This document shows, in pieces, positions 3,646 to 18,881 of a stretch of DNA of 27,426 bases. The translations under genes were made by a program, and so were the position numbers. Numbering within the stretch: the first letter of the stretch is position 1; each line of letters starts with the position of its first letter. Source of the DNA: a virus; IMG/VR virus record IMGVR_UViG_3300005518_000037, positions 1 to 27,426 of that record, one strand, 5' to 3'. The notes under the pieces were generated by a model. That model saw nothing but the letters and a program-made list of their open reading frames with translations. It was not told where the DNA came from and did not search any database.

Positions 3646-4287
3646 TTAGAGGTTCATGTACATCGGATGCTTCGCTTGCTCAACAACCTTTGTACGTTCC
3701 TCTGCTTCTGTTTCAGAGCGAGTGCCTTCATTTGTGGTTCTTCCGCCGCCGCGTCCACCAGGAGTGGACGGAGGTGTTTGGGGTGCTTTCGGAGCGCCAA
3801 AACTTTCCTTCAACTGCAATGCGTCAGCTTCAAGAGCTTCGTCATCGTCAGTATCGATTAACCGTTTCCAGTTAACATCAGGATTGGGTAAGCCAACTTT
3901 AATCGCCATCAGCAGTTTTCGAAGTTGAGTTTCAGCCGCTGCTTTTTCTGCTTTAGCAGTCAACAGATCAGCATTAGCTTTATTCAACTTCTCTTCTGTG
4001 GTGGCAGTCGCAGCCGCTTGCTCTTCTTCAAGCTCTTCACGCGCCTTGCGCTTACCTTCTTCTAATGACGAACGACGAGCCTTTGCAAGCTCGGCATTCA
4101 GGTAAGCTTCAACTTCCGGCGTTACACCATCAGGCTTCTCGCCCTTCTTCTTCGTAGCGCCCGCGCCGGTATCAGCACCCGCAGTTGACAGGTCTGGTGC
4201 TGGCGGATCGCCAACGCCGGACTGTTGCCCTGGTGCGGTTCCAGGTGTAGGTAGTTGCTGATCGTTTGGTTTGGTAGGTTCAGGCAT
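3646..4287 (-). CDS. head scaffolding protein
   Basis: This 213-residue protein has the scaffold layout. The first 55 residues are rich in P, G, T and D. A long charged coiled coil follows at about 60-130 (runs of A, E, K and R, including EEGKRKAREELEEEQAAATA). A short segment with GLPNPDVNWKRLIDTDDDEA is next, and a disordered glycine/threonine/glutamate tail ends it. Lengths near 200 and the NPDV-like segment after the coil recall phage scaffold families such as GP20-like or DUF4355. It sits between the MuF and cement genes. No protease domain is visible, so it probably exits the procapsid or is cleaved by another enzyme. Confidence 0.8.
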   Translation of the reverse strand: MPEPTKPNDQQLPTPGTAPGQQSGVGDPPAPDLSTAGADTGAGATKKKGEKPDGVTPEVEAYLNAELAKARRSSLEEGKRKAREELEEEQAAATATTEEKLNKANADLLTAKAEKAAAETQLRKLLMAIKVGLPNPDVNWKRLIDTDDDEALEADALQLKESFGAPKAPQTPPSTPGGRGGGRTTNEGTRSETEAEERTKVVEQAKHPMYMNL

Positions 4288-5046: not shown

Positions 5047-6683
5047 CAGTCAAGGTTAGCATTCACATTTCCGGCTCGCGGCTGTCTAGGCGCTGGCGTC
5101 ACATCCGTTCTTGCCGGATTATTCGATCCTGGAAGCTGACTCAATGATCCTTGACCGGCTGCACTATTAACTACAGGCCTGTTACCATTGCCAGCAGCAA
5201 GGGAACCACTCACCTGTCGTTCAGATTCGATTTGCAGTTGCAATAATTGATTTTGTAGCGACTCAGACTTAGTAACAGTAAGATAGTCACGCTCATTAAA
5301 CTTATGATCGAGTAACTTACCTTTAATTGCTTGTTTCACCGCATCAATATTGCCTTTACCACTTCCGACATCCCATAGACCAAGAAGGATGCCGTAGGCC
5401 AGTGCCATCTTCTGCGCCTTGATCAAAGCTGACTCATAATTAGCTCTAGCAACCTTCAATCTATCCACAGCGGGAGTACGAAGCTGCGCAATGGTCTGAC
5501 CAGTAGTATTAGACAAGAAATCGCCGTCAGTCGCTTTAAGTTCCGGCATACGATCACGTAGCTCACTCATAATCGTCTTAGCCTGCGTAATTGCGTCGGC
5601 TATTTTTAGATCAGCTACCAGCGCCTGAATGTGAGTGTCATTCGCGGTTTGTTCAGGAAGCAGCTTAATGAACAATACCGAAGTATCACTGAAGTTGAAT
5701 TCCCTCGGTGGATTACCTTTTGAGCTAACCAGCCACTTCACTCTGACGTGACGAATGATTTGCCGGTTGATGTGCGCGATAAGAGAATTCAATCTGTCAA
5801 TAGGATTCTCTGATCCCATAAACCACCAAGCACCCCAATTACCTTCAAGCTTGCGATGAAACGAGAGTACATAAGGGACAGTACCAAGGATGTTCGGAGA
5901 ACTCGCAAACTCACCGTCTACCTTATCAACTACCTCATCATACGGCGCATCGTTTTTGTAAGTCTCAAAAACTTTCTCATTCATCAAAGTCTTATAGACC
6001 TCAATCGAGCGAGAAGTTTCAGGATCATCGATCTTAATATCACCCTCAACTACGCGATGCGTCGTCAAGATTTGTGTTATGTCTTGCTGCTCATTCTTTG
6101 AATAATCTTCGATGATCGAAGGGTGTTCAAACTGAATATAGACAAGACGATCATCGATTGAATCATTCGGCCAATCTTTGCCGACTTTCGCAACGACACG
6201 AATGCCAACTGTGCCAAGCATCGATCCCAAACGCGGAAAGCGTTCTTTCTCACCTGAATTGAAGTTCGACCACTCCCAGATTTGTTCCAGCGGATCGATG
6301 ATCTTTTCATTTAACTTACGCGGCTTGTTCTTGGTGCCCACAGAATCGGCAAGATATATCTCGTCACCGAAGTTACCAGCGAAGATGTTCTGCGCGTATA
6401 ACTCCGTACCGCGCTCAACAGGATTGAATAAGCCAGACAAGTCACGGGCCGCTGCTTCACCTAATTCACGATTCACATAATCCAATGATCCGTGCCAAAT
6501 CTCACGATTGTAGATAGTGTTGTAGTAATACGCTTCGAGTAAGAGATAGACACGTCTGCGATCAATAGGAGTGATCGACGCGGGCCGCAGACTTTCAATG
6601 GAGCTTGGCGCAAAGATTTTAGAAACCAGCGCCAGCGGATTGAGGATGTGCGTCCTATTCGCAATGTTCGGATCGAAAGTCAT
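5046..6683 (-). CDS. portal protein
   Basis: A 545-residue protein between terminase and MuF genes, the fixed place of the portal. Early segments are PASITPIDRRRVYLLLEAYY and YNREIWHGSLDYVNRELGEA. The central part has PYVLSFHRKLEGNWGAWWFM and repeated amphipathic helices. The last 60 residues (NGNRPVVNSAAGQGSLSQLP onward) are low complexity and probably disordered. Length and layout fit SPP1-type dodecameric portals, which form the DNA channel, dock the terminase and nucleate head assembly. AAGGTGAG lies 10 bases before the ATG. The stop TGA overlaps the next start, so translation is coupled. The call rests on position and size rather than an exact motif. Confidence 0.82.
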   Translation of the reverse strand: MTFDPNIANRTHILNPLALVSKIFAPSSIESLRPASITPIDRRRVYLLLEAYYYNTIYNREIWHGSLDYVNRELGEAAARDLSGLFNPVERGTELYAQNIFAGNFGDEIYLADSVGTKNKPRKLNEKIIDPLEQIWEWSNFNSGEKERFPRLGSMLGTVGIRVVAKVGKDWPNDSIDDRLVYIQFEHPSIIEDYSKNEQQDITQILTTHRVVEGDIKIDDPETSRSIEVYKTLMNEKVFETYKNDAPYDEVVDKVDGEFASSPNILGTVPYVLSFHRKLEGNWGAWWFMGSENPIDRLNSLIAHINRQIIRHVRVKWLVSSKGNPPREFNFSDTSVLFIKLLPEQTANDTHIQALVADLKIADAITQAKTIMSELRDRMPELKATDGDFLSNTTGQTIAQLRTPAVDRLKVARANYESALIKAQKMALAYGILLGLWDVGSGKGNIDAVKQAIKGKLLDHKFNERDYLTVTKSESLQNQLLQLQIESERQVSGSLAAGNGNRPVVNSAAGQGSLSQLPGSNNPARTDVTPAPRQPRAGNVNANLD

Positions 6684-13951: not shown

Positions 13952-13980
13952 TTGACGTTAGGCATTTACTTTGATAGAGT
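13952..13980 (+). promoter_or_regulatory. plus-strand sigma70-like promoter
   Basis: TTGACG (13952-13957), a 17-base spacer, then TAGAGT (13975-13980). Matches are 5/6 and 4/6 to consensus with ideal spacing. It points into the plus-strand operon, and an inverted repeat lies at the expected start site (13986-14003). Probably an early promoter. Confidence 0.5.
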
Positions 13981-14021: not shown

Positions 14022-14123
14022 GTGCTCACACAAACGCTAGCTTTAACCGCGATAATCGAATGTTTCGTCTTAATCCCCGTATTCCTTCTCATGGCGAAGA
14101 TACGCCAAGCGAGACGCTATTGA
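14022..14123 (+). CDS. possible tiny membrane protein, 33 aa
   Basis: GTG at 14022 opens a 33-residue frame with a single hydrophobic helix (LALTAIIECFVLIPVFLLMA) and a basic end (KIRQARRY). It is the first frame after the plus-strand promoter and operator. GAGA about 8 bases upstream is a weak ribosome site. One-helix tiny proteins are common first genes in phage early operons, but this may be chance. Confidence 0.35.
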   Translation: MLTQTLALTAIIECFVLIPVFLLMAKIRQARRY

Positions 14124-14260
14124 TTCCCTCATAATCACAGACAACGGCCTATCTGTAGATAGTTCGTTGCGTGCGATTAGGCACGATCAGAGCGGTTTTG
14201 ATTGTCAAACCCTACGGGCTATCCGCTCATCAGTTCATTGATAACCAGCAACGCGAGAAT

Positions 14261-14289
14261 TTGATCTAGTCGGCTTATGCCGGTAGGAT
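14261..14289 (+). promoter_or_regulatory. weak promoter candidate upstream of DUF932 leader
   Basis: TTGATC (14261-14266), 17 bases, TAGGAT (14284-14289), each 4/6 to consensus. It lies about 70 bases before the long hairpin leader. Upstream, bases 14124-14260 contain no gene but include a hairpin near 14193-14210 (GGTTTTGATTGTCAAACC). Confidence 0.25.
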
Positions 14290-14308
14290 CGGGCGTTGCG
14301 TAATAGGT

Positions 14309-14332
14309 AAGCATTCAATTAAAGGATCGTGT
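14309..14332. repeat. left copy of imperfect inverted repeat around DUF932 gene
   Basis: AAGCATTCAATTAAAGGATC plus GTGT. Its reverse complement recurs at 15583-15608 with two extra T bases, and weaker similarity extends outward through GTAATAG on both sides (about 35 bp in total). Confidence 0.7.
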
Positions 14333-14358
14333 GCTGAAACTGCGAGCTTCAGCGCTCC

Positions 14359-14453
14359 ACCTCACAATTGAGTGATTCGAGACAAAGACTCATTCGGCCT
14401 GGCTGTGGGGCTGCGACTGGACGAGTCAGGCTTGGATCACTCAGTTGTGAGGT
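14359..14453 (+). ncRNA. structured 5' leader of the DUF932 gene (long hairpin)
   Basis: Bases 14359-14376 (ACCTCACAATTGAGTGAT) pair with 14436-14453 (ATCACTCAGTTGTGAGGT) as an 18-bp helix with one G-U. Inside it GACTC (14387-14391) can pair with GAGTC (14423-14427), enclosing a GC-rich loop. The element ends 9 bases before the AAAGGAG ribosome site of the DUF932 gene. It could be an attenuator, a protein-binding leader or an unknown regulatory RNA. It resembles no riboswitch class I know. Confidence 0.5.
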
Positions 14454-14474
14454 AGGAAGCAAAGGAGATCGAAC

Positions 14475-15554
14475 ATGGAGCTTTACAAAGCAAATCGACA
14501 GTGGAGTACACGTCCCGAAGATGAGAAGTTCAGCAGCTTAGAAGAGATGCGCGCCGCGTGTTTCGCTTACTATCAATCGGCGAAGCAGGCGACCGTACCC
14601 TTCTCCTCTTTACGTGTCGAAGCGGTAGGTGCAGAGGTAATGCTGTTAGGCAACGCCAACAATCAAGCGGCGTTGACTAACTACGCATTCGGACAGCTTA
14701 GCGCGCGTGTCAACGCTCCGGCCAGTTATCTGCGGACGTTGCCGCCAACACTCGCCGCGCAGAACATCAATCACGGCATCAAATGCCGCGTTGATAAAGC
14801 TGACGGCGAAGAGGACAACGCGAAGCTGTTACTGCACAGCAACGGATCGCTGTTACTGCGGGCGATCACATCCGAGAAGTATACGCGAATTTGGAATTGG
14901 GAAGTGATGGATCGGATCATTCCGTTACAGTCACTTGGTTGGGAGCCTGCACGTCCCGACATTCGCGTAAAGGATGACATGCCCGCGCTGTACGCTTCGG
15001 ATCATGATATGTTCGCGTTCATTCGCAACAAGTCAGTAATCGTGCGCGAGCCCGGCAATTCTGATGGACTGCAACGCGGCGTGATCATCGAGAACTCGGA
15101 AGTCGGCGCCTCGGCGCTGAAGCTGACACGGTTCCTCTACCGCGAGATGTGTGGAAATCACATCATCTGGGGAGCGTCAAACGTGCTGGAGATCAAAGTA
15201 CGGCATGTGGGCGACGCCCAGCAAAGGTGGAGTGGTTACGCCGCGCAGATCAAGAAGTATGCAGAGGAATCGGCCAGCGACGATGAGCGCACAATTGCGG
15301 AAGCGCGTACGCTCAAGATCGGTGATACTAAGGAAGAGGTGCTTGACAAGCTTTTCGGCAAGCGCTCGCTGCAAGTGTCACGCAAGGCGCTGGAGTCGTC
15401 GTATGAAGCGGTAATCCCCGACCAGGACGGCGACCCGCGTACAGTATGGGGATTCGTGCAAGGCATGACTCGCCACAGCCAAACGATTGCCTACGCAGAC
15501 CAGCGCACGCAGTTAGACCGTGCGGCTGGCCGCGTGATGGAAATCGCGTTCTAA
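14475..15554 (+). CDS. DUF932 (phage/plasmid-like) protein, 359 aa
   Basis: The 359-residue protein matches the phage/plasmid DUF932 family in length and landmarks as recalled: early NNQAALTNYAFGQLSARVNA then PASYLRTLPPTLAAQNINHG, LLLRAITSEKYTRIWNWEVM, a middle GVIIENSEVGASALKLTRFL, and MCGNHIIWGASNVLEIKVRH. Function is not established for the family; it occurs with mobile-element replication and anti-defence genes. It has an excellent AAAGGAG site and a structured leader, and is flanked by an inverted repeat, so it may be a strongly expressed early cargo gene. The helical C-terminal third carries KKYAEESASDDERTIAEART. Confidence 0.85.
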   Translation: MELYKANRQWSTRPEDEKFSSLEEMRAACFAYYQSAKQATVPFSSLRVEAVGAEVMLLGNANNQAALTNYAFGQLSARVNAPASYLRTLPPTLAAQNINHGIKCRVDKADGEEDNAKLLLHSNGSLLLRAITSEKYTRIWNWEVMDRIIPLQSLGWEPARPDIRVKDDMPALYASDHDMFAFIRNKSVIVREPGNSDGLQRGVIIENSEVGASALKLTRFLYREMCGNHIIWGASNVLEIKVRHVGDAQQRWSGYAAQIKKYAEESASDDERTIAEARTLKIGDTKEEVLDKLFGKRSLQVSRKALESSYEAVIPDQDGDPRTVWGFVQGMTRHSQTIAYADQRTQLDRAAGRVMEIAF

Positions 15555-15582
15555 ATCGTTACTAGACCTGCTCGCATCACAG

Positions 15583-15608
15583 ACACGATCCTTTTTAATT
15601 GAATGCTT
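15583..15608. repeat. right copy of imperfect inverted repeat around DUF932 gene
   Basis: ACACGATCCTTTTTAATTGA plus ATGCTT, the reverse complement of 14309-14332 apart from a 2-base insertion in the T run. It lies 28 bases after the DUF932 stop codon and just before the ribosome site of the next gene. Confidence 0.7.
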
Positions 15609-15633
15609 CATCTATTACAGAAAGAGTTACACC

Positions 15634-16311: not shown

Positions 16312-16611
16312 TTGACATCACCGGCGACCACAGTTGAGACGATCTATCGTGCGGCCCTTAAGCGACAGCACGGCAAAAAGGTTGCAAGGCGCGTGATGTA
16401 CAGTTACGATATGCGTGGCACGTATGGCAACGCGCGCCGAACACTGCGCGTAGCTCCACGCGATCTCGCGTCACTGCGAATTGAGCATGAGGTAAAGATC
16501 GAAGCGCTGAAAGTGGCGTGGATTCTATCTGAGCGCGTGAACGTCTCTGCGCGCCACGCCGCGCCGTGCATTGCTAATTATCAACGAGACAATCCAGGAG
16601 TCATACTATGA
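16312..16611 (+). CDS. hypothetical basic protein, 99 aa
   Basis: The only usable start is TTG 16312 (MTSPATTVETIYRAALKRQH), with GAG 9 bases upstream. An ATG at 16305 leads to an early stop. The 99-residue protein is basic and helical (KRQHGKKVARRVMYSYDMRG; ARRTLRVAPRDLASLRIEHE). Its TGA overlaps the ATG of the alanine-repeat gene (ATGA), so the two are coupled. The odd start might reflect one more reading-frame lesion. Function is unknown; nucleic-acid binding is possible from charge. Confidence 0.55.
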   Translation: MTSPATTVETIYRAALKRQHGKKVARRVMYSYDMRGTYGNARRTLRVAPRDLASLRIEHEVKIEALKVAWILSERVNVSARHAAPCIANYQRDNPGVIL

Positions 16612-17240
16612 AAACATCAAAACACGTAACTGCGCTTAACAGGTTAGATGCTTGCTCCACTGCTGTAGAGTATGCTGCACAGTTTCCAACACTTCAAAAG
16701 GCCTGGGATGCCTGTGAGCGTGGTGATTGGATGCTTTGGCTTATCGGAAAGCAAGTTACTAGCGCACCTTGGAGTGAAGATCGAAAACCACTGTTGGCTT
16801 GCGCTTTGGATTGTGCTGAAACTATCAAGCACCTCTGGAACGATAAGACAAGAGCACAAGTGGCTGTACTTAGAAAGTGGATCACAGGTGAAGTCACAAC
16901 TGATAGAGCACAAGAAGCCAGAAGACAGTTATACGCCGCCGCCGCCTACGCCGCCGACGCCGCCTACGCCGCCTACGCCGCCGCCTACGCCGCCGCCGCC
17001 GCCGCCTACGCCGCCTACGCCGCCGCCGCCGCCGCCGACGCCGCCTACGCCGCCGCCGACGCCTACGCCGCCGCCGCCGCCGCCTACGCCGCCGACGCCG
17101 CCGCCGACGCCGCCGACGCCGCCGACGCCGCCGCCGACGCCGCCGACGCCGCCGCCGACGCCGCCGCCGCTCGAAAGAAAAATCGACAGCAAACCGCTGA
17201 TATAGTTCGCGCTCATTATCCAAAAGCACCAAAATTGTGA
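16608..17240 (+). CDS. alanine-repeat protein with conserved N-terminal domain, 210 aa
   Basis: Residues 1-105 form a domain recalled from phage and bacterial proteins: CSTAVEYAAQFPTLQKAWDA then CERGDWMLWLIGKQ, a cysteine-rich helix (LLACALDCAETIKHLW), and VAVLRKWITGEVTTDRAQEA. From about 110 to 187 the chain is almost only A with Y or D every few residues (YAADAAYAAY-type), which should be a long helix. The end returns to normal sequence (QQTADIVRAHYPKAP). Similar domains are sometimes labelled putative immunity protein; I cannot confirm that. CCAGGAG precedes the ATG. The repeat may vary in length between relatives. Confidence 0.75.
   Translation: MKTSKHVTALNRLDACSTAVEYAAQFPTLQKAWDACERGDWMLWLIGKQVTSAPWSEDRKPLLACALDCAETIKHLWNDKTRAQVAVLRKWITGEVTTDRAQEARRQLYAAAAYAADAAYAAYAAAYAAAAAAYAAYAAAAAADAAYAAADAYAAAAAAYAADAAADAADAADAAADAADAAADAAAARKKNRQQTADIVRAHYPKAPKL
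16933..17169 (+). repeat. GCC/GAC/TAC trinucleotide repeat inside the alanine-rich gene
   Basis: About 237 bases composed almost only of GCC, GAC and TAC codons. Read in other frames it gives proline/threonine, arginine or glycine/valine runs, so long open frames here on both strands are artefacts. Such DNA is prone to slippage in steps of 3 and to assembly collapse. It is more GC-rich than all surrounding sequence. Confidence 0.9.
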
Positions 17241-17863: not shown

Positions 17864-17943
17864 GATCAAATAACCTATTTCCATTATCAAAGCTACGGAC
17901 AGAGCTACGTGCGGCTGGTGTTAATGGCGTGACTGCAAAATGA
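17842..17943 (+). CDS. tiny ORF coupled to ruvB, 33 aa
   Basis: ATG 17842 opens MVLYTPLRSNNLFPLSKLRT and the frame ends VNGVTAK at TGA 17943, overlapping the ruvB ATG as ATGA. It overlaps the preceding small gene by 22 bases. Because ruvB has no clear ribosome site of its own, translation of this ORF may deliver ribosomes to it. Length makes the call uncertain. Confidence 0.45.
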   Translation: MVLYTPLRSNNLFPLSKLRTELRAAGVNGVTAK

Positions 17944-18881
17944 GCGAAGAGATTAGACCACAGCACTTGTCAGAGTATCTTGGTCAGGATCAGATACGCA
18001 ATAGCCTGGCGCTGAGCATCAAAGCCGCGCTACAGCGCCGTGAGACGTTGGATCACGTATTACTCACAGGCCCGCCAGGACTCGGCAAGACTACCCTTGC
18101 GCAGATCATCGCGCGTGAGATGCACACCGAAACGCATATCGCGTTTGCGCCGTCACTCAAAGCCGCAAGTGATCTATCTCGTACGCTTAAGCAGCTAAAT
18201 GAGGGTGACGTACTATTCATCGATGAGCTTCACCGGCTGCATCCAGCGATGGAAGAGTGCTTATATACCGCGATGGAGGACTTCACTGCGCCGGTTACTA
18301 CTTATCAAGGCTCACAAGTCATGATTGAGTTGCCACGCTTTACGTTAGTTGGCGCAACGACGCGGCCAGGACTGCTCACGCAGCCATTACGTAATCGCTT
18401 CGGCATCATCGGACAGCTTGACTTCTACTCCGAAGCACACCTGATAAGCATTTGTCAGCGCAGCGCTGAAGTGTTAGGTCTGACCATTGATTATAGCGGT
18501 ATGAAAGAGATCGCGCGACGGGCTAGAGGCACTCCGCGTGTCATCAATCGCCTGCTTAGACGTGTGGGCGACTTCGCAATGATCCACTGTAAGGGTGAGG
18601 TAATCGATCAGTGGATCGCCGACGCTGCGCTGAACTTCAACGGTATAGACTCTTTGGGCTTGGAACGTGTAGATCGCGACTACCTACAATTGCTGGTTGA
18701 AAAGTACAATGGCGGGCCGGTTGGTCTGATCACCCTGGCATCCACACTCAACCAGGAAAAGGATAGCTTGGAGGAAGTAACGGAGCCTTACTTACTGCGT
18801 CTGGGTTTCATCGACCGTACACCACGCGGTAGAGTTGCAACCGAACTGGCTTGGAAACATCTGAAAGGATCGAAACAGTGA
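17940..18881 (+). CDS. ruvB: RuvB-like Holliday-junction branch-migration helicase
   Basis: The 313-residue product aligns by eye with bacterial RuvB over nearly full length: RPQHLSEYLGQ at the start, Walker A GPPGLGKT (44-51), Walker B LFIDELHR (92-99), sensor 1 GATTRPG (138-144), the arginine-finger region LRNRFG (150-155, R151 or R153), RARGTPRVINRLLRR in the lid, and a C-terminal winged-helix (VGLITLASTLNQEKDSLEEV; PYLLRLGFIDRTPRGR). RuvB is a ring ATPase that drives Holliday junctions with RuvA. No ruvA or ruvC is visible here, so it either uses host RuvA or acts alone on replication forks. Phage copies of ruvB are uncommon. It is coupled to the upstream 33-residue ORF and overlaps the next gene by GTGA. 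Confidence 0.92.
   Translation: MSEEIRPQHLSEYLGQDQIRNSLALSIKAALQRRETLDHVLLTGPPGLGKTTLAQIIAREMHTETHIAFAPSLKAASDLSRTLKQLNEGDVLFIDELHRLHPAMEECLYTAMEDFTAPVTTYQGSQVMIELPRFTLVGATTRPGLLTQPLRNRFGIIGQLDFYSEAHLISICQRSAEVLGLTIDYSGMKEIARRARGTPRVINRLLRRVGDFAMIHCKGEVIDQWIADAALNFNGIDSLGLERVDRDYLQLLVEKYNGGPVGLITLASTLNQEKDSLEEVTEPYLLRLGFIDRTPRGRVATELAWKHLKGSKQ

Follow-up and report, generated by a model that had tools for sequence, protein, structure and literature searches.

A leader–trailer helix and a leader hairpin predicted around the DUF932 gene of a phage, and structured gene flanks among its relatives

The early mRNA of phage T7 carries long RNase III processing hairpins, which lie between the early genes near ribosome sites. 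In bacterial pre-16S and pre-23S rRNA, leader–trailer helices of 25–44 bp stand beside leader hairpins and are cut by RNase III (PMC10250234). The 5′ and 3′ UTRs of the icaR mRNA of Staphylococcus aureus pair with each other, and the paired RNA is likewise cut by RNase III (PMC3868564). The locus described here lies in a viral record of IMG/VR (IMGVR_UViG_3300005518_000037), and the whole stretch analysed, 27,426 nt in length, is referred to as the window. The features of the locus are as follows, with the basis of each in parentheses.

13952–13980, + strand: sigma-70-like promoter TTGACG-17-TAGAGT, predicted start of the early transcript (consensus match only)
14022–14123, + strand: small ORF of 33 aa, hydrophobic, GTG start, first frame of the leader (sequence)
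14248–14299, + strand: P1, hairpin of the leader, GCAACGC/GCGTTGC, with a GATC/GATC helix inside it and a stem at the apex (predicted fold)
14300–14347, + strand: 5′ strand of P2, the leader arm (duplex energy, compensatory changes, whole-mRNA fold)
14359–14453, + strand: P3, hairpin of 23 contiguous pairs and inner helices (predicted fold, sequence)
14461–14468, + strand: Shine-Dalgarno sequence AAAGGAGA (sequence)
14475–15554, + strand: DUF932 gene, 359 aa (Pfam and PHROG profile matches)
15570–15618, + strand: 3′ strand of P2, the trailer arm (self-search, duplex, compensatory changes, whole-mRNA fold)

P3 is located in the predicted rightward early transcript. A preliminary description, made from the letters alone, had pointed to an inverted repeat exactly at these positions, and the repeat is present. 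The helix, reported there as 18 bp with one G-U pair, is larger: 14359–14381 pairs with 14431–14453 in 23 uninterrupted pairs, 20 of them Watson-Crick and three G-U (14368–14444, 14377–14435 and 14379–14433). The inner 5-bp helix reported with it was found as GACUC/GAGUC, with more pairs further in. The Shine-Dalgarno sequence begins 8–9 nt past the helix, in agreement with the perfect ribosome site noted 9 bases after the hairpin, and the ATG follows at 14475. The MFE of 14340–14480 on the + strand is −67.7 kcal/mol, against −43.4 ± 3.9 kcal/mol for dinucleotide shuffles (z −6.2, reached by 0 of 200), whereas the opposite strand gives a z of just −3.4. After GC correction, P3 ranks first among 5,464 segments of 110 nt on both strands of the contig, which bears out the remark that the leader is structured beyond chance; overlapping palindromes aside, no other local inverted repeat of the contig is as long. 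In an unconstrained fold of the whole predicted mRNA of 1,674 nt, P3 is part of the MFE structure with pair probabilities of 0.98–1.0. All these fold energies apply to naked RNA at 37 °C. The leader has no match in Rfam 15 at the gathering score and no ribozyme match at E ≤ 10, and none of the known riboswitch or leader families among the Rfam 15 covariance models matches it even at a permissive threshold, as expected from the earlier statement that it is unlike known riboswitches. The suggestion that P3 might be a processed small RNA found no support.

The gene behind P3 matches PF06067 with 31.2 bits (curated cut-off 23, E 2.4e-7) and phrog_1362 (E 5e-35), and leaders are structured throughout its family. 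The description of P3 as a structured leader preceding DUF932 was right. One search gave 31 relatives of the protein and later ones gave more. Its AlphaFold model is fair (pLDDT 83). Compared with the PDB, the model has no fold match and no structural relative with known RNA binding; the neighbours in a viral structure library are mostly DUF932/TIGR03299 or unnamed proteins. As the PDB gave no match and the named neighbours were all DUF932/TIGR03299, assignment of a function from the fold was rejected. The papers found in the literature name DUF932 just once or twice each, in passing. Upstream of the gene, the aligned place in L004, one of two closely related loci (L003 and L004), carries the same promoter element as TTGACA-17-TAGAGT and a reading frame aligned with the small ORF. 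P1 adjoins P2, and compensatory differences in it were read by eye in L003 and L004. Further along the window, 16608–17240 encodes a protein of 210 aa in which a long Ala-rich tract consists of A, D and Y only; the DNA for this tract, near 17061–17170, has a GC content of about 90%. Positions 17940–18881 encode a phage homologue of the RuvB Holliday-junction helicase (RuvB_N, E 1e-59).

P2 was first seen as a second, larger inverted repeat in a self-search of the window by local alignment. It is a helix of 43 pairs between leader and trailer, with arms about 1.2 kb apart, and encloses both P3 and the DUF932 gene. The duplex has an energy of −59.6 kcal/mol, against −18.5 kcal/mol for shuffles (z −12.3). 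The nearest relatives, L003 and L004, whose DUF932 proteins are 77 and 73% identical to that of the window, share this helix, with 41 pairs (z −11.0) in L003 and 45 (z −13.3) in L004. Counting paired columns alone, P2 has eight in which both sides differ between the three phages and four more that differ by G-U, while a bulged G followed by CUG/CAG is kept in all three. P2 also appears in the unconstrained MFE structure of the 1,674-nt mRNA, and its pairs have probabilities of about 1.0 in most of the part examined. The trailer arm has no local structure of its own (z +1.9 for the 80-nt 3′ flank in the window). A DNA search of viral contigs for further phages with P2 returned L003 and L004 again, together with chance matches and nothing more. 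Because P2 is seen in three related phages only, its covariation rests on few independent events, and gene conversion that keeps inverted repeats alike could mimic it.

Both computable marks of a leader–trailer processing helix are found in P2, namely a long helix flanking the gene and covariation, the latter in few sequences. Like the pre-rRNA helices, P2 joins complementary flanks, has covariation support and lies next to leader hairpins, and its arm spacing of about 1.2 kb compares with 1.5 and 2.9 kb in rRNA (PMC10250234). Unlike them, it encloses a protein-coding phage gene, and its cutting by RNase III is presumed. As in icaR, the two ends of one mRNA pair into dsRNA (PMC3868564). In icaR, however, a 7-nt motif pairs on the Shine-Dalgarno sequence, whereas the helix of P2, about 43 bp, lies upstream of the ribosome site and does not include it; moreover, pairing in icaR brings repression and decay, the opposite sign to the protection proposed for P2. 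The T7 hairpins are local only, whereas P2 is long-range and its cleavage putative.

Because the arrangement in the window resembles that of pre-rRNA, with icaR as the nearest mRNA precedent, P2 is best read as an RNase III processing stem. We propose, giving the proposal an even chance, that P2 isolates and protects the DUF932 message as a leader–trailer processing stem, while P3 shields the 5′ end or serves as a second site. Provided that the region is transcribed as predicted, the leader arm and the trailer arm would form a rod that keeps both ends of the cistron side by side. Host RNase III, whose presence is assumed, would cut this rod as it cuts the leader–trailer helices of pre-16S and pre-23S rRNA, and the cut would free the DUF932 mRNA from a polycistronic early transcript. 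P3, just inside P2 and directly before the ribosome site, would then guard the newly made 5′ end against decay or be cut itself by RNase III. The outcome would be a DUF932 message that is stable and well expressed. Computation shows the two helices, the covariation of P2, the strand signal and the pattern across the family (see below), whereas transcription through the region, cutting, protection and high expression are inferred.

In L003 and L004 the place of P3 is also taken by a hairpin, but a shorter one of unrelated sequence, so the exact helix of P3 is lineage-specific; judged from these alignments, it is the slot that is conserved and not the sequence of P3. The preliminary description had looked to covariation in homologous leaders for confirmation. 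Such covariation is present in the long-range P2 and, in other lineages, in the motif described below, but neither L003 nor L004 has a helix that matches P3 itself in sequence. Structure around the gene extends to the family as a whole. Dinucleotide shuffles of 36 sequences, including the window, gave a z of −1.46 for the 5′ flank of DUF932 against −0.35 for the flanks of other genes at the same loci (p 4e-6), and a z of −2.41 against −0.10 for the 3′ flank (p 2e-8). The excess on both flanks was repeated in 15 distant relatives, which brings the comparison to about 50 relatives in all. The phages with P2 are the exceptions on the 3′ side, with local z values of +1.9, 0.6 and −0.1, as if P2 stood in for the local 3′ hairpin in these three. 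Some 3′ hairpins of the relatives resemble intrinsic terminators, and for this reason part of the 3′ signal may reflect termination rather than processing. The common denominator is RNA structure that sets the DUF932 cistron apart on both sides.

Relatives at 44–63% identity mostly have a different leader in the slot of P3, of the form X-ACRGU-N-Y-loop-Y′-ACRGU-N-X′, in which X and Y are covarying stems and an A stands opposite a G in the middle of the motif in 26 of 27 sequences (A opposite A in the remaining one, L057). The alignment of these 27 sequences (A6) pairs in 98.3% of its cells, 58 cells being changed on both sides, and its covariation score is 0.534 against 0.111 for shuffles (0 of 500); it was built with the motif in mind, and slid and shuffled controls fall far below it. 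A covariance model built from these sequences, R1, has 31 matches with E values of 0.0013 or lower among 66 loci, and almost all of them lie immediately upstream of DUF932. At the level of whole phage records, 24 of 27 have a match, with few strong ones outside DUF932 leaders; the record of L017 has a weak match outside its DUF932 leader, and that of L061 has one before a neighbouring gene. A strict pattern searched in 2.9 million viral contigs returned five loci, all five on contigs with a known ACRGU leader of DUF932. In L012 (2439–2470), L013 (2656–2694) and L055 (1867–1899), second copies of the motif immediately precede a gene that weakly matches the ArdC N-terminal domain. The motif has no match in Rfam 15, and the case that it is a structured RNA missing from Rfam is well supported by the sequence comparison, where newness means absence from Rfam 15 and from those open-access papers that were searched. 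Model R1 finds the motif in none of the window, L003 and L004, and an assignment of the window leader to it was rejected for want of an R1 match.

These observations bear on the main rival to a processing stem, namely that P3 is a translational operator to which a phage protein, in the simplest case DUF932 itself, binds beside the ribosome site to limit its own synthesis, the ACRGU motif being the ancestral operator. The position of the motif, about 15–20 nt upstream of the DUF932 ATG and nearly always there and once per genome, is what such an operator would show; its near-symmetric ACRGU/ACRGU core, with the opposed A and G and the bulged bases, resembles a protein site, and the second copies stand before an ArdC-N-like DNA-binding gene. 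However, the motif is missing from the very phages that carry P2, DUF932 lacks a structural relative of known RNA binding, and an operator leaves the structure of the 3′ flank, P2 and the twisters (see below) unexplained. We therefore consider an operator at P3 unlikely, although the ACRGU motif is a better candidate for an operator, possibly an autoregulatory one, than the leader hairpin of the window.

Other relatives have matches to self-cleaving ribozymes at the two places. In L017–L019, a Type-P5 twister (RF02684) lies before DUF932 and another starts at the first base after the stop codon, the one before DUF932 in L018 scoring below the family cut-off. Thus RF02684 occupies the same places around DUF932 in these loci, whereas the window is without any Rfam match; RF02684 and its clan gave no covariance-model match in the window leader. 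The whole records of L017–L019 (G024, G028 and G029) contain 5–8 twister matches per phage, on one strand and also around neighbouring genes. L040 combines an ACRGU motif upstream of DUF932 with a twister directly downstream. The distant relatives L028, L029, L031 and L032 carry before DUF932, at about 3876–3952, a two-hairpin motif (CCUGUAGC...GCUAUGGGGUGCAAUC) that no Rfam family matches at the gathering score; in L031 it is repeated downstream of the gene (5103–5142). The phage contig of L036 has a permuted tmRNA (RF04321, 84.5 bits) at 2027–2277, about 0.7 kb upstream of DUF932. If P2 is a processing stem, the elements that fill the same two places in related phages, twisters on both sides or a covarying leader motif and a 3′ hairpin, would isolate the cistron as well. 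A broader proposal is that the DUF932 mRNA is, across the family, cut from or insulated within an early operon by interchangeable, lineage-specific RNA devices, whether a P2-type helix, twisters on both sides, or a 3′ hairpin combined with the ACRGU motif, which may itself be a new catalytic or protein-binding RNA. This proposal we regard as doubtful.

Are the repeats selected as RNA at all, rather than as DNA? In the paired columns, all eight transition-type mismatches (one, two and two in P2 of the three phages and three in P3) are G-U in + strand RNA and none is A-C, an outcome with a probability of 0.004 if the two were equally likely. Selection on DNA or on the other strand would be expected to leave A-C in half or more of the mismatches. 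Selection on + strand RNA is therefore indicated. This speaks against taking the repeats as DNA features, either terminal repeats of a mobile cassette that carries DUF932 or a hairpin of a replication origin in a divergent intergenic region, for which one may cite the inverted repeats of 33–36 bp of DNA around the gene in three phages and their location between divergent gene clusters. The conserved bulged G within P2 suits an RNA helix. The window has no copy of the P2 repeats beyond these two, viral contig searches found none around other genes and no unrelated carrier, and the idea of the terminal inverted repeats of a transposable element was rejected on these grounds. In addition, no target duplication was seen at the repeats. 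The three phages have their terminase genes in common, which argues that the repeats are not the ends of a cassette that has moved. A role as DNA is thus improbable.

The preliminary description also raised control of translation, which is possible, but the predicted alternative folds affect the ribosome site weakly. P2 could act as a switch if, without the trailer, the leader arm partly covered the Shine-Dalgarno sequence and P2 formation pulled the arm away. In L003 and L004, predicted folds do pair the inner end of the leader arm with the ribosome site, and P2 formation raises the unpaired probability from 0.48 to 0.72 in L003 and from 0.52 to 0.62 in L004; the change in the window, from 0.65 to 0.68, is negligible, and such a switch is very improbable. 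The leader might also serve the early operon as a transcription attenuator or as an antitermination element, for which its several hundred nt with stacked hairpins downstream of a promoter-like site might speak; this reading is the least probable of all, given that the leader has no terminator with a U tract and that P2 requires prior transcription of the trailer.

A processing stem at P2, if true, would mean that a leader–trailer helix in the style of rRNA insulates one protein-coding phage message and that related phages do so with ribozymes. To our knowledge, the biological function of phage twister ribozymes is generally unknown, and the arrangement around DUF932 would give them a testable natural role. 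It would also provide a handle on DUF932 itself, which is widespread in phages and plasmids.
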